From a virus, in the IMG/VR virus record IMGVR_UViG_3300009423_000016, positions 1 to 33,852 of that record: a stretch of 33,852 bases of DNA; one strand, 5' to 3'. This document shows positions 3,201 to 15,139 of this stretch, in pieces. The number at the start of each line of letters is the position of its first letter. Within the stretch, counting starts at the first letter, position 1. Position numbers and translations under genes: made by a program. The notes under the pieces were generated by a model. That model did no database searches. It was not told the origin of the DNA and worked only from the letters and a program-made list of their open reading frames with translations.

Positions 3201-3938
3201 AATGTTGTTAGGTGTCCAGTCGTTGCCGTTGCCACTTGCATCAGCCGCCAGCGTTGTCGTGTTAGTTGCATCGCTGAAGGGCAGGTAGAAGCCGTTAGTG
3301 CCGTATGTGCCTTCGTATTCGGTAGGTTGCCATACGCCTGTGTCTTCGTTGTACTCGCCAAAGGATGATGGGTCTAGTTGTTGACCGTCAATGAAGTTGA
3401 CTTCGGTTATGTATCCGTCAAAATTTAAAGTTGAATACCCGCCAAGTTGGTGAGCAACAGAATTGTTGACTTGTAAATCTGTATTTTGTGACGGATAGTT
3501 TGCCACTTGAATTGTCTGCAAAACCCCATTCACATAAATTCCAACCCTATTTGATGCCGTTGCTTGTGTCGTATCTACTTTAATGACAATGTGATACCAA
3601 GCAGAGGGGTCACGATATACTGCATTAGTTTTTAATTCACCTGCGGCACTGACACCAGCCGTAGTCGAGAAGTAAAAATTGTCACTAATAAATCCAAAGA
3701 AAAGCCAAGGAGTTGTTGCCCATCCACCTTCAAAAAGCGCTTGATTTCCACCAAGTGCCCCACGTTTTACCCAAGCACTCCACGTCCATGTCTTGCGGTT
3801 TCCAGCGGATGCAAAAGTCCTATTCAAATAAGCAGACGCACTTGACCGTAAGCGCAGGGAGTTCTCAATAGTGTAGCCAGCACCACCACCAACTTGACCC
3901 GATGCACCCGCTAGGATGTTTGAACCAATAATGCTCAT
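216..3938 (-). CDS. Modular tail fibre with two lectin-type modules and a DUF7483-like C-terminus
   Basis: Large fibre of about 1240 residues, probably the host-contact protein. I take ATG at 3938 (MSIIGSNILAG) because GGAGG lies 9 bases before it and it overlaps the upstream stop as ATGA; an upstream in-frame start at 3959 lacks this support. Two homologous modules, residues about 26-455 and 487-925, each begin with NSLRLRSSASAYLNRT, contain a LamG/concanavalin-like part (WSAWVKRG, DPSAWYH, YPSQNT), then a SPRY-like part ending NFGQRPFAYTPPT. The C-terminal third (about 930-1240) has the DUF7483 look and ends in MAFAENPFKNSLAR. GC content is mosaic: sampled lines in the lectin parts are about 30-33%, the connecting parts about 57%. 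No chaperone or endosialidase autocleavage motif was seen. Confidence 0.85.
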   Translation of the reverse strand: MSIIGSNILAGASGQVGGGAGYTIENSLRLRSSASAYLNRTFASAGNRKTWTWSAWVKRGALGGNQALFEGGWATTPWLFFGFISDNFYFSTTAGVSAAGELKTNAVYRDPSAWYHIVIKVDTTQATASNRVGIYVNGVLQTIQVANYPSQNTDLQVNNSVAHQLGGYSTLNFDGYITEVNFIDGQQLDPSSFGEYNEDTGVWQPTEYEGTYGTNGFYLPFSDATNTTTLAADASGNGNDWTPNNISLTSGVTYDSMTDTPTPYADGGNYAVLNPLHKSANATVSDANLKIRSAVTGQNNFAIATITLPTDKVYFEVTAGNNTGAIVVCEVGLVVPTTQSFAGTNSGIQCVNGGLNKIVNGVYTSIGGGLTTGTVLGFAYDLVNGLMTIYRDGTAVATDETIPTTFRAVLASVYRDTANDVGWEFNFGQRPFAYTPPTGFLPLHAGNLPDSTIVSGDDYFKTYLYIGNGGGLQVGEIQKPFTTYEVSNSLRLRSSASAYLNRTPATAGTRTKFTFSAWVKRGQLGTRQSITAVRQGTSDYFILEFQANDTLNLISTTSGAVNTNLITSQVFRDPSAWYHVVFTYDSTPATPNASSVYLSINGTKVTSLSTATYPSQNTNIYYNVSSVEHDIGRLGNLTFYLDGYLAELNNIDGQALTPSDFGDYDGNNYWVPKAYTGTYGTNGFYLDFSDTTSTATLVADQSGAGNDWTPNNISLTAGATYDSMVDSPTPYADAGNYCTLDPLFGRADAGGAYGTTNGNLTGANIGAGGWAMLGSTMFIPAASGKYYFECTVGAAPQTMSVGVQKAGTPFAAPYIVGYAGDANGYSYANDGYKFNNGSSAYGTTATVGDVIGVAIDASGATSSIEFYKNGTSMGVAFTGISGGLMPALSTTAGAGNCNMNFGQRPFAYTPPTDFKTLNSFNIPEVTDDLETPDLVWIKSRSAAQSHTLFDSVRGVHNYLESDDTAIEATDVNSLLQFNKNGFLLGASAAVNTSGNTYAGWGWKAGTAFSNDAGTNGATIASVGSVNQDAGFSIVTYTGNGTSGATVSHGLSVAPSLILPKVTSRSGDNWHCYHSALGGTKGIILNVPNKEATDAGFWNNTNPSSSVFTLGTYNVFSEQDYVAYCFAEVEGYSKFGSYTGNGLTDGIFVHLGFKPKFILVKCSSNAFDWHITDTSRSTYNQADTVLFPNLPNQEANGTGYYYDILSNGFKCRNLGAATNGSGYTYIYMAFAENPFKNSLAR
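2431..2454. repeat. 24-bp exact repeat in the tail-fibre gene, module 2 copy
   Basis: Identical to 3817-3840, 1386 bases (462 codons) away in the same frame. It encodes SASAYLNRT at the start of the second lectin module. It marks an internal duplication or recombination hotspot in the fibre gene. Confidence 0.95.
3817..3840. repeat. 24-bp exact repeat in the tail-fibre gene, module 1 copy
   Basis: Identical to 2431-2454 and in the same reading frame. Exact nucleotide identity here, where the flanking module DNA has diverged, suggests recent exchange or conversion between the two modules. Confidence 0.95.
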
Positions 3939-8508: not shown

Positions 8509-10520
8509 TATGCGAGTGCTCCCTTGCCCGACTCATTCAAGGCGGTGTTAATCATGTTGATAATCTGCCCACGGCGCGAGTCCAGCAAATCGTCAAAACT
8601 CTCCGCATCAACCGTGCTGATTTGAAACGTGACGTTAGCTTGCTGGTTAATGGTCTTACCGCTGTCGCCACGCAATTTATCGTTAGGGATGATGCGACCG
8701 CCGCCACCGTTCATCGTTAGCACCTCTGGACCACGTTCGCCGACAACGTAAGACTCGCCATCACGCACCTGACCGCCTAGCGCACGGCCTGTTAGCGACT
8801 TAGCCGCGTAACTTACACCAGCGCCAAGAATCAAGGCCGCAGCGCCAGCACCCAAGGCTGGACCAATGATAGGGATGCCCGCCAACGCTTTATATGCGCC
8901 CATAGCCGCCGCGTATGAGTCAGACACAATCTTAGCCGCGTTCTGTCGCTTCTCGGCGCTGGCAAGGTTTACAGCAAGGCGGTAGGCCGTCTTTTGCTTT
9001 TCGCTCTTGCCCTTCATCAATACGTCTTCAAAGGCCAACAACTGAGTTGTAGTTTGCGCGGCACGCTCGCGGTCTTCGGCAGCGGACTTGTCTTTGATTG
9101 CCCGCAACTTGTCTTGACGCTCCAACTCCAGAGCCGCCATCGCTTCGTTTACTTGCTGACCGGTTAGCAGGGTGCTGTCCAGAATGGTTTGCGAGCGCCG
9201 TTCGTATGAGAGGCGAATCTGCTCCTCCTCGGACATTAGGCTTTCGGCAATCTGTACGGCACGCTGGTCAATGCTCGCTTGCTCGGCATCGGCTTTCTTT
9301 CCCTCGGCTTTATAAAAGTTAGCAAACCAGCGGTCTAAATTACTTTGGTCGGCTTCCCTTGCTTTGGTTCTGGCTTTGTCTTCGGCCTCATTCCGCTTTT
9401 TGGTTGCCGCTAAAAGTTTAGCCGCTTCTACTTCTTCTTGGTATTTTTTGATTGCCTCGGCTGATAGCATTATCGACTTTAACTGCTCTGCGTTAGCGCC
9501 CATCTGCACGGCCTTATAGCGTGCAAGTTCAATCGTATTTAGGCCAAGCGTTGCGGCTTGCTCTTTCAGGCGCTCAACGTACCGGGTAATGTCTTCAAGG
9601 CGGCGCTTAGCGTCCTTATCTTCCTCTTTTTTTACGCCGATGATTAGGTCGTACTTTTCTCTGAGGGCTTCTAGCGCGGCAGCTTGTTTTTCTTCTGCTA
9701 ATGCTAAATTTTGTTGTTTTATCCTAGCCTCGACAAGCATATCGACGTAGGGGTTCAGCATATTAGCCGCTTCAAGTGCGGCAGGGTCGCGTAGCGCTTT
9801 GTTTGCTTCTTCTAATGCGACCCTAGTCTTTTGTATTTTTTCCTCGGCCTTTTCTATGTCTTCGAAGGTCTCACGAATGGCGACAGTTCGGGCAGCATCA
9901 CCTAATTTATCAAAGCCCTCAGTAAGTTCGTCTATTTCTTTTTTGAAGTCTTTTGCCGCTTCTGTGCCATTGCTAAAATGCGCCACCAAAGCCGTTCCAA
10001 CCGCAGCGCCCACGGCGATAACCGCACCGACGATAGCACCGCCCGGACCAAACGCACCAGCGATTTGCGAACCCTGCTGACCAAACACAATCATGGCGTT
10101 TGTGCCCGACTGCAACTGAACCGCAATATCTTGTACTTGGAAACCTAACTGACCAGCCGTGCTGCGTAGCTTGCGAACAGAGTCCGATGTTTTTTTGCTA
10201 GAATTGCTAAAGTTTTCATTTTCATTCTTGGCGTTTTTCAATGACGCCGACAGCGAATCATTAGCCGCTTTTACCTGTTTAAATTCCTTCTCTAATGAGT
10301 TAAAACGGGCTTGTGATTCGCGGGCTTCTTTATTCAAAGCCTCAATTTGCTTTTTGGTCTCCCTTGCAGAAACCGATAAATCCCTGTTTTCTTTTGCTAG
10401 CTTTTCTATTGCGCTCGCGGTCTTTTTGCCAGACTGAGTAACGCCGTCTAGCGCTGTTTCAGCGCGAGTTAGGTCTGACGTATCGGCTTTAAGTGTGAGG
10501 GTTGCTACTTCGGTGGCCAT
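8508..10520 (-). CDS. Tail tape measure protein
   Basis: 670 residues. It sets tail length during assembly and threads the tail lumen. Residues about 35-115 are coiled coil. These are followed by the characteristic segment LGFQVQDIAVQLQSG (near 124) and a hydrophobic stretch GGAIVGAVIAVGAAVGTALV. A second helical zone and another hydrophobic stretch (IIGPALGAGAAALILGAG) come near 555-580. At about 1.5 angstrom per residue the tail would be near 100 nm (inference). The start at 10520 lies inside the end of the -1 frameshift product of the chaperone gene, a 16-base overlap. Confidence 0.95.
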   Translation of the reverse strand: MATEVATLTLKADTSDLTRAETALDGVTQSGKKTASAIEKLAKENRDLSVSARETKKQIEALNKEARESQARFNSLEKEFKQVKAANDSLSASLKNAKNENENFSNSSKKTSDSVRKLRSTAGQLGFQVQDIAVQLQSGTNAMIVFGQQGSQIAGAFGPGGAIVGAVIAVGAAVGTALVAHFSNGTEAAKDFKKEIDELTEGFDKLGDAARTVAIRETFEDIEKAEEKIQKTRVALEEANKALRDPAALEAANMLNPYVDMLVEARIKQQNLALAEEKQAAALEALREKYDLIIGVKKEEDKDAKRRLEDITRYVERLKEQAATLGLNTIELARYKAVQMGANAEQLKSIMLSAEAIKKYQEEVEAAKLLAATKKRNEAEDKARTKAREADQSNLDRWFANFYKAEGKKADAEQASIDQRAVQIAESLMSEEEQIRLSYERRSQTILDSTLLTGQQVNEAMAALELERQDKLRAIKDKSAAEDRERAAQTTTQLLAFEDVLMKGKSEKQKTAYRLAVNLASAEKRQNAAKIVSDSYAAAMGAYKALAGIPIIGPALGAGAAALILGAGVSYAAKSLTGRALGGQVRDGESYVVGERGPEVLTMNGGGGRIIPNDKLRGDSGKTINQQANVTFQISTVDAESFDDLLDSRRGQIINMINTALNESGKGALA

Positions 10521-11208
10521 GTTGGTTCTGCGTTCCTATATTTAGCCAAGCCCATCACGGCCTCGACTTCCCAAGCATCTAGACGGTTACCCGTTAGTTC
10601 CATGTATCGGTGCATCTCATTGTAAGTGTAATCAGTCAGGCTGGTGTACACATTCCAACAGTCGTTATGCTCAGACCTTAACTTGGGCGCATTAGCTAAC
10701 TCGGCTGGCGTAGACCCTCGGCTTTTGGCTACCTGTTGCAGGGCTTCGTATCGGCTAATCTTTGAGCCTTCGGCGCGGTCGTTTATCCAAAAACACCACC
10801 GCCCGTAGCTTATAAACTCATCAATTAGCCGGTCGTAAAATTTGCCCTGCGCGTCAGGAAGTCGATTAACTGGCTAACGATTGCCGGTGAATCTGCGTAC
10901 AGCTTGAGCGCGTTTTTCTTGTTGCACGGGTACGGCTCGCCGTTATCGACGATGCCGCTCCAGTCCATCGTGACAGCCACCAGCGCGTCAATGTCCATCT
11001 TGTCGTAATCAAGGTCAATATCTTTGCCGCCACTTTTTGCCGCAATGATTTGGCTTGTCTGGTTCTTCTTGGCGTTGCGCCACTCTTTCGAGTCAGAACC
11101 TTTGATTTTGATGAACACATCGGTAGGCGACCCATCCACGGGCGAGAGGATATTACACTCTGCGCCCGCTTCGTGGCTTTCTACTGTGCGTAGGCTGTTT
11201 AATTCCAT
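10505..11208 (-). CDS. Tail assembly chaperone, -1 frameshift fusion (G-T type)
   Basis: The upstream chaperone ORF (10825-11208) carries an A AAT TTT slippery heptamer at 10843-10837. Slipping back one base after codon 124 opens a frame that runs 110 codons (starting YDRLIDEFISYG) to TAG at 10507-10505, giving about 234 residues. The extension is protein-like (SRYEALQQVAKSRGSTPAEL, MELTGNRLDAWEVEAVMGLA) and resembles the T half of lambda-type G-T chaperones. The architecture, between tail tube and tape measure, is exactly that of the conserved frameshift pair. It would bind the tape measure and recruit tube subunits. Confidence 0.85.
10825..11208 (-). CDS. Tail assembly chaperone, unshifted product (G type)
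   Basis: 127 residues (MELNSLRTVESHEAGAECNI) ending FTTG at TAA 10827-10825. It begins 2 bases after the tail tube stop. Such G-type proteins coat the tape measure before tube polymerisation and are not part of the mature virion. The usual partner is produced by -1 slippage near the 3' end; see the fusion entry. Sequence identity to lambda gpG is not apparent, so the assignment relies on position, size and the frameshift signal. Confidence 0.8.
   Translation of the reverse strand: MELNSLRTVESHEAGAECNILSPVDGSPTDVFIKIKGSDSKEWRNAKKNQTSQIIAAKSGGKDIDLDYDKMDIDALVAVTMDWSGIVDNGEPYPCNKKNALKLYADSPAIVSQLIDFLTRRANFTTG
10837..10843 (-). other. Programmed -1 frameshift slippery site
   Basis: On the minus strand the heptamer reads A AAT TTT in the zero frame, an exact X XXY YYZ slippery pattern. 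It lies 9 bases before the zero-frame stop TAA, and the -1 frame is open for 110 more codons. No strong downstream pseudoknot was obvious by eye. Confidence 0.85.
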
Positions 11209-11210
11209 GT

Positions 11211-13993: not shown

Positions 13994-15139
13994 TTAGCCC
14001 AACAACACAGCGATGTGCTCTGGCTTCCATGCTTTGACGCCCCAAGATGCGGCGACTTCAATCATGGTCTTACGGTAGCCTTTGTAGACTCGGACTTCAA
14101 ACACCATGCCGGTGAATGGGTCTTGAATCAACATTGCGTCCGTAGCTGTGTCGCCACCATCGGGTACAGCAGGAGCGCGCATGGCGATTTCCAGCGCGGT
14201 GCGGTGGAAAGCCACGTTTGCGGCGTAGCTGTTGCCAACGGTGATTGCGGCGTCGTTAGCCAGCGCAATGCGTGAGCCTGGTGCGCCGATTGCGAAAGAA
14301 CCACCTGCAAGCGCCGTATTTACGACGTACTTGTTGGTGTCACCGTTAAAGGTTACAACGTCACCAGCGATGATGGTGCCTGTGCCGCCGTCAGCAGCGA
14401 TAACGGTGTCACCGATTGCGTGAGAGGCGTCGTTCACCAAGTAGCTTGCGCCCGTACCTTTGGTATGTGACTGCACTTGTGCAGACTCTTTAACCATCAG
14501 GCCTTGCAGGTCAAGCAAAACGCCTTGGCGCAACATATCAACACCACCAGCTTCGTTAGCCTTTTGCAACTGAGCCAATTGACGCAGGTTTGTGCCAGCC
14601 AACGTGCCAAGAATCATAGATGCTTGACCGTCGTTGCTAGGCATACCGTTGTCAACCAGAATCTGGCGCAACTCGGCGACTTCGCTGAAGTTAGAACCGA
14701 AAGGCGTAGTGCCAGCAGTACCGAAAGCGCGTGATGCGTTTGTGTATGCCTCAGCAGCCAAGTCAGCTTCCATCTCGTTAGCCAGCGTGCGCATAGCTTG
14801 CTTGATTTGGTCACCGTAGACGGTCTCAAAACCGATACCGTTGTTCAGGTGACGCACGTCCTCGCCGGTGTAAGGGATTTGCACAGCGCGAGCCTTGCTG
14901 ATAACCAATGTCTTGTTATCAACCGTCTGGTCTGTACCTTCGGGGATGGTCATTGACTCAGCCACGTTTACAGCGGTAGCTGCGCGTGTGAATGAGGCAC
15001 GAACATTGTCACCCTTAGCGGCACGCTCGGAGCCGTTGGCGTTAATGGTAGCTGATGGGATGAAGCCGACTAACTCGCGGCCTACTACGTCAGCGGCTTT
15101 ATAAATGTCCGCTGCAAGGTTGTCTAATACGTTTGCCAT
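13994..15139 (-). CDS. Major capsid protein (P22 coat-like, HK97 fold)
   Basis: 381 residues. It follows the scaffold gene with AAAGGAAC upstream of ATG 15139. The N-terminal part (DNLAADIYKAADVVGRELVGFI, INANGSERAAKGDNV) and the helix ALANEMEADLAAEAY-type segment (TLANEMEADLAAEAYTNASR) match P22/coat-protein-5 type shells. Residues about 225-305 form a beta-rich insertion (GDTVIAADGGTGTIIAGDVV), equivalent to the P22 insertion domain. The C-terminus ends in VAASWGVKAWKPEHIAVLLG, a typical P-domain strand. It is followed by an intrinsic terminator. Confidence 0.9.
   Translation of the reverse strand: MANVLDNLAADIYKAADVVGRELVGFIPSATINANGSERAAKGDNVRASFTRAATAVNVAESMTIPEGTDQTVDNKTLVISKARAVQIPYTGEDVRHLNNGIGFETVYGDQIKQAMRTLANEMEADLAAEAYTNASRAFGTAGTTPFGSNFSEVAELRQILVDNGMPSNDGQASMILGTLAGTNLRQLAQLQKANEAGGVDMLRQGVLLDLQGLMVKESAQVQSHTKGTGASYLVNDASHAIGDTVIAADGGTGTIIAGDVVTFNGDTNKYVVNTALAGGSFAIGAPGSRIALANDAAITVGNSYAANVAFHRTALEIAMRAPAVPDGGDTATDAMLIQDPFTGMVFEVRVYKGYRKTMIEVAASWGVKAWKPEHIAVLLG

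Follow-up and report, generated by a model that had tools for sequence, protein, structure and literature searches.

Does the short gene between the tail tube and tape-measure genes of this phage encode only the first half of a longer protein, the second half of which would be reached by ribosomes that slip back one base close to the stop codon, and which features of the mRNA would such a slip need? The locus lies on the minus strand of the window (the whole stretch of DNA analysed, a virus record of 33.9 kb obtained from environmental DNA), and its features are collected in Table 1. A sequence-only reading had proposed a programmed −1 frameshift in a tail assembly chaperone; the conservation of the −1 frame in related phages and the match of the extension to the family PF23812 support this proposal. 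With little doubt, we are dealing with a −1 ribosomal frameshift of the type known from the G and GT proteins of phage lambda. Frameshifting in tail chaperones is widespread and well documented (PMC5009743; PMC10885494). The present case is of this known kind, and what is new lies in its details, namely a stem specific to the family and a slip site that departs from the textbook heptamer in related phages.

The zero-frame gene and its −1 extension

The zero-frame gene, termed G here, matches PHROG 313, "Tail assembly chaperone" (E = 9.6e-18), and its closest relative among phage records is found in MW091528 (31% identity). The location claimed for the chaperone, with the tube gene on one side and the tape-measure gene on the other, holds: PF18906 is encoded upstream and tape-measure families, including PHROG 1538, downstream, as in a G/GT-type arrangement. 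The −1 frame, described as open over 110 codons, is indeed open down to 10505. This extension, termed T, reads YDRLIDEF...TWPPK from its first codons UAC GAC CGG, and its end, TAG included, shares 16 nt with the tape-measure gene, which begins with the ATG at 10520.

Table 1. Coordinates of the probable frameshift locus and its neighbours, in the order of transcription.
Feature	Positions	Strand	Remarks
Tail tube protein, upstream neighbour of G	12128-11211	−	PF18906 Phage_tube_2, 2e-56
G, zero-frame tail assembly chaperone	11208-10825	−	127 aa, from the list of open reading frames and its translation; start ATG at 11208, stop TAA at 10827-10825
Slippery heptamer A AAT TTT	10843-10837	−	in phase; invariant core T_TTY consists of the TTT codon and the T that ends AAT
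T, −1 frame extension	10837-10505	−	110 codons plus TAG stop at 10507-10505; base 10837 is re-read
Stem, 5' arm, CGGCUAAUU	10831-10823	−	begins 5 nt past the slip codon in this phage
Zero-frame stop TAA	10827-10825	−	9 nt (ACG ACC GGC) after the slip codon; contained in the 5' arm of the stem
Stem, 3' arm, GAUUAGCCG	10760-10752	−	pairs with 10831-10823
Tape measure protein, downstream neighbour	10520-8508	−	PHROG 1538, 3e-43; PF06791 TMP_2, 1.6e-08

An alignment of the extension with chaperone families had been suggested as a check, and T does match Pfam PF23812 (Phage_TAC_18) above its cut-off, with 35.6 bits against a gathering threshold of 27 (1.1e-08) over T residues 36-96. T is thus above the Pfam cut-off and G has a strong E-value in PHROG 313, yet the similarity to the chaperones of cultured phages is weak; T is about 30% identical to its counterparts in Bradleyvirinae-type and other phages. 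In the studied phage, ATG, GTG and TTG are absent from the T frame before T codon 62, and invariant positions occur within T residues 1-14, the conserved N-terminal half including Y1, L4, F8 and GRW. Since conservation begins at codon 1 and no start precedes codon 62, the N-terminal half of T cannot come from a start of its own. T is therefore a conserved −1 reading frame that lacks its own start codon, as in G/GT systems.

AlphaFold models, in which each half was modelled from its own relatives, were confident, with a pLDDT of 91.6 (G) and 92.6 (T). When compared with a library of modelled viral proteins, both matched the same single chains, namely A0A7L8ZK78 (232 aa), the tape measure chaperone of Escherichia phage Seurat (268 aa) and, with a weaker fold match (E 0.064 and 0.0023), the tail assembly chaperone of Salmonella phage 9NA (231 aa). 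Single-chain proteins that combine the two halves are thus already on record in other phages. A search of the PDB with the G fold found nothing, and that of PDB sequences with the G profile nothing credible.

Relatives were collected by scans of IMG/VR (20, then 80, then 80 loci, in overlapping sets). The second scan together with the studied phage gave the main comparison set of 66 distinct loci, and a separate scan gave a held-out set of 17 further distinct loci, or 83 in total. No relatives were found in bacterial genome contigs with the search patterns used, and NCBIfam gave no match. In all 66 loci, the −1 frame is open and in register; a loss of frame conservation in related phages, which the sequence-only reading had named as an observation that would refute it, did not appear. 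The zero-frame stop follows the slip site by 9 nt in 64 of the 66 loci, and all three stop codons occur at this place. A tree built from the fused genes gives 4.1, 3.35 and 10.9 changes at positions 1, 2 and 3, respectively, of the T codons in the −1 frame, which is the substitution pattern of a translated gene. In one lineage (L077 and L093; also L015, L016 and L019), TGG replaces the nearby zero-frame stop and G is 36 codons longer; the stem described below and the −1 frame are still kept there.

The probable slip site and its conserved core

The end of G reads GCA AAT TTT ACG ACC GGC TAA, so that A AAT TTT is found, as had been reported, in the correct phase at 10843-10837 of the minus strand and 9 nt before the zero-frame stop. 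It is located near the end of G and inside the −1 overlap, and it has the X_XXY_YYZ form, in which the P- and A-site tRNAs are both able to re-pair (with XXX and YYY). By itself, the heptamer is weak evidence for frameshifting: when G ends were simulated with the same C-terminal residues and the codon usage of the phage, 16.6% had an XXXYYYZ in phase within the last 15 codons, and this strand contains 22 in-phase heptamers in 6274 codons. Because the motif alone is weak, what carries the case for frameshifting is that the −1 frame is long, has homologues and is conserved, and that the slip codons are conserved as well. A second in-phase AAATTTT is present at 18355-18349 of the minus strand, where 12 nt separate it from the stop codon of the terminase large gene and the −1 extension comprises just 9 codons; given so short an extension, it looks like a chance occurrence.

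The third bases of the codons bear directly on the slip site. On the tree of the fused genes, G codons have a mean of 12.75 third-base changes, and an invariant Phe codon located seven codons upstream of the slip site has 14; no such change is seen in the 66-locus set at the slip codons, which are AAT (or GTT) and TTT. The only other G codons with zero third-base change are those for Met and Trp, which have no synonym.

The heptamer itself varies. Among the 66 loci, AAATTTT occurs in 45, CAATTTT in 7, GAATTTT in 6, GGTTTTT in 5 and TAATTTT in 3, so T_TTT is in place in every one of them; 21 of these loci lack the XXX half, which is thus no family-wide feature. The 17 held-out loci add AAATTTC (twice) and GGGTTTT (once) to variants already met, and each of the 83 distinct loci has TTT or TTC as its A-site codon, with a T directly before it. 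The "perfect" AAATTTT of the sequence-only reading is, therefore, present in the studied phage but is not the unit conserved in the family, about one-third of the related loci breaking the P-site half while keeping T_TTY and the stem. This unit is T_TTY in the A site rather than the full X_XXY_YYZ. In the three TAATTTT loci, a TAA stop in the −1 frame directly precedes TTT, which means that the slip must occur at TTT or within the next three codons.

Studies of bacterial −1 motifs in E. coli found that cognate re-pairing in the A site is the main rule, that the tetramers U_UU.U and U_UU.C shift when given a stimulator and that R_RR.U_UU.Y motifs are particularly prone to shift (PMC4066793). 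The variation of the slip site across the loci is just as this A-site rule predicts. A Shine-Dalgarno-like stimulator upstream of the slip site is absent in 64 of the 66 loci. In the freely readable literature that was searched, AAATTTT was not found as the slip site of a phage tail chaperone, an absence that is not proof; the sole match concerned a hydrolase of a Wolbachia phage.

The stem downstream of the slip site

The 5' arm of an RNA stem begins 5 nt after the slip codon in the studied phage, and 6 nt after it where the outermost C-G pair is missing; such a distance falls within the 5-9 nt expected of a 3' stimulatory structure. In the alignment, this outer stem pairs columns 13/14-21 with columns 84-91/92 and closes about 60 nt after its 5' arm. 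Of 51 distinct sequences, 28 have GC and 23 have AU at the pair 18-87, and none departs from pairing; corrected mutual information places this pair at the top of 3091 column pairs, and four joint changes are seen on the tree. It is not forced by the protein, because both of its bases are third positions of −1 frame codons (for Leu and for Ile or Val). The pair 15-90 occurs as GC, AU and GU. RNAalifold, unaided, independently proposes the outer stem, and the six core pairs are all standard in each of the 17 held-out sequences.

Folding energies point the same way. Compared with synonymous-codon shuffles, the minimum free energy gives z = −3.97 for the studied phage and a mean of −2.61 over 52 sequences, while the region from +6 to +111 gives a mean z of −2.94 against dinucleotide shuffles. 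The first 50 nt downstream, when folded alone, give no signal (mean z −0.26), the signal requiring the 3' arm. In several loci, another structure has the minimum free energy when the region is folded in isolation. Within the stem, helix 2 of an inner hairpin is paired in 63% of cells and its apical part differs between lineages; given such weak pairing, the detailed inner hairpin was rejected as a conserved element. Rfam has no match at E ≤ 1 within 10500-11210. The outer stem would stimulate slippage or pause the ribosome at the slip site.

Alternatives, mechanism and comparison with known systems

One alternative explanation is that the shift occurs during transcription: RNA polymerase would insert an extra U within the T run, and some mRNAs would then encode G-T in a single frame. 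One added base does give an identical frame, and Bradleyvirinae-type relatives have seven consecutive T at the equivalent place, enough for a polymerase to slip on. However, the run has only four T here, four or five in the family and three in two loci (AAATTTC), and slippage by the polymerase on four T is unlikely. Moreover, a conserved stem 5-6 nt downstream and a strict codon phase fit a ribosome, not a polymerase, which makes the transcriptional explanation very improbable for the studied phage, though it may hold in the relatives with seven T. It could also be argued that T is a separate gene, translated from an internal start or by re-initiation without any fusion, since annotators have called short internal T genes in related phages and T is closely spaced with the tape-measure gene. 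This has hardly any probability, given that the conserved region begins long before the first possible start in the T frame, that two-domain chaperones of fusion length are annotated in other phages and that there would be no reason for the slip codons to be frozen.

A last possibility is that a heptamer happens to lie by the stop codon, with a degraded gene, or one mis-sequenced through an assembly indel, behind it. The motif alone does not exclude this, as around 17% of codon-shuffled G ends contain some in-phase heptamer. What refutes it is conservation across loci: a stop 9 nt after the site goes with the same −1 frame in 64 of 66 loci, in which all three stop codons are used, and T evolves as a gene. 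A chance origin is thus extremely improbable.

The programmed −1 ribosomal frameshift would then work as follows. Most ribosomes would translate G and terminate at the TAA at 10827-10825, whereas a minority would pause at AAT TTT, where the stem would meet the mRNA entry of the ribosome, and then slip back by one base. The Phe-tRNA in the A site would re-pair from UUU to UUU, and the Asn-tRNA in the P site from AAU to AAA in this phage and to CAA, GAA or UAA in relatives. Reading in the −1 frame would continue with UAC GAC CGG past the stop and add the T domain of 110 aa, yielding a G-T fusion of 234 aa. In lambda, G binds the tape measure and T binds the tube protein (PMC5009743); by analogy, many copies of G and a few of G-T may coat the tape measure protein, with T recruiting tube subunits. 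The sequences themselves establish the frames and their conservation, the relationships by family and by fold, the invariant T_TTY and the covariation of the stem; the occurrence and rate of slippage and the roles of G and G-T in assembly are inferred from lambda, and the stem is presumed to make the ribosome pause.

As to what the slip requires, it might be only re-pairing in the A site on U_UUY plus the covarying stem that holds the zero-frame stop, the P-site half (AAA, CAA, GAA, UAA or GGU) being free to drift, a proposal for and against which the balance seems to us even. If it is true, many chaperones said to have "no canonical slippery sequence" may obey the same rule with other A-site codons. 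The family offers a natural matched set, in which the same protein and the same stem are combined with several P-site variants, for gauging the share of the P-site tRNA in bacterial −1 slippage. The stem provides a second, independent mark for annotation where the heptamer is degenerate, and the analysis brings to light a gene overlooked by ordinary gene calling in the studied phage and in scores of its relatives.

The likeness to lambda G/GT lies in the position between the tube and tape-measure genes, the −1 shift near the end of G and the location of T in the −1 frame (PMC5009743). The differences are that lambda uses G GGA AAG and the studied phage A AAT TTT, whose T_TTY core is invariant, and that the protein families are others, here PF23812 and PHROG 313. 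The Z_ZZN motifs of bacterial IS elements (U_UU.U and U_UU.C) resemble the present site in that only the A-site tRNA re-pairs fully and in having a downstream stimulatory structure (PMC4066793), but they belong to transposase genes, and in the studied phage, the P site also re-pairs well (AAU to AAA). Bradleyvirinae-type phages (Epa19, PAKlein3, AXL_1, Donnerlittchen and others) share the gene order, a homologous T and a −1 frame overlapping G, but the run at which they would slip is C TTT TTT TC.

A G-T fusion is annotated in none of the seven cultured-phage records examined (PP931173, PP992516, MW176032, MT118296, PP954861, ON529854 and NC_073034), all of which list T as a truncated hypothetical gene. 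The fold predicted after C TTT TTT TC is stable in six of them (−32.7 to −52.4 kcal/mol) and weak in MW176032 (phage L025, −15.4). At the equivalent place in MW091528, A AAT TTC occurs at 3387-3393 with an unannotated −1 overlap, T being called as a separate hypothetical protein. For Escherichia phage Shashou (MK931440), no canonical slippery sequence was reported (PMC6776780); its only possible G/T overlap, of about 25 nt at 14783-14810, ends with G GAA AAG TAG, in which A_AAG is a candidate tetramer.
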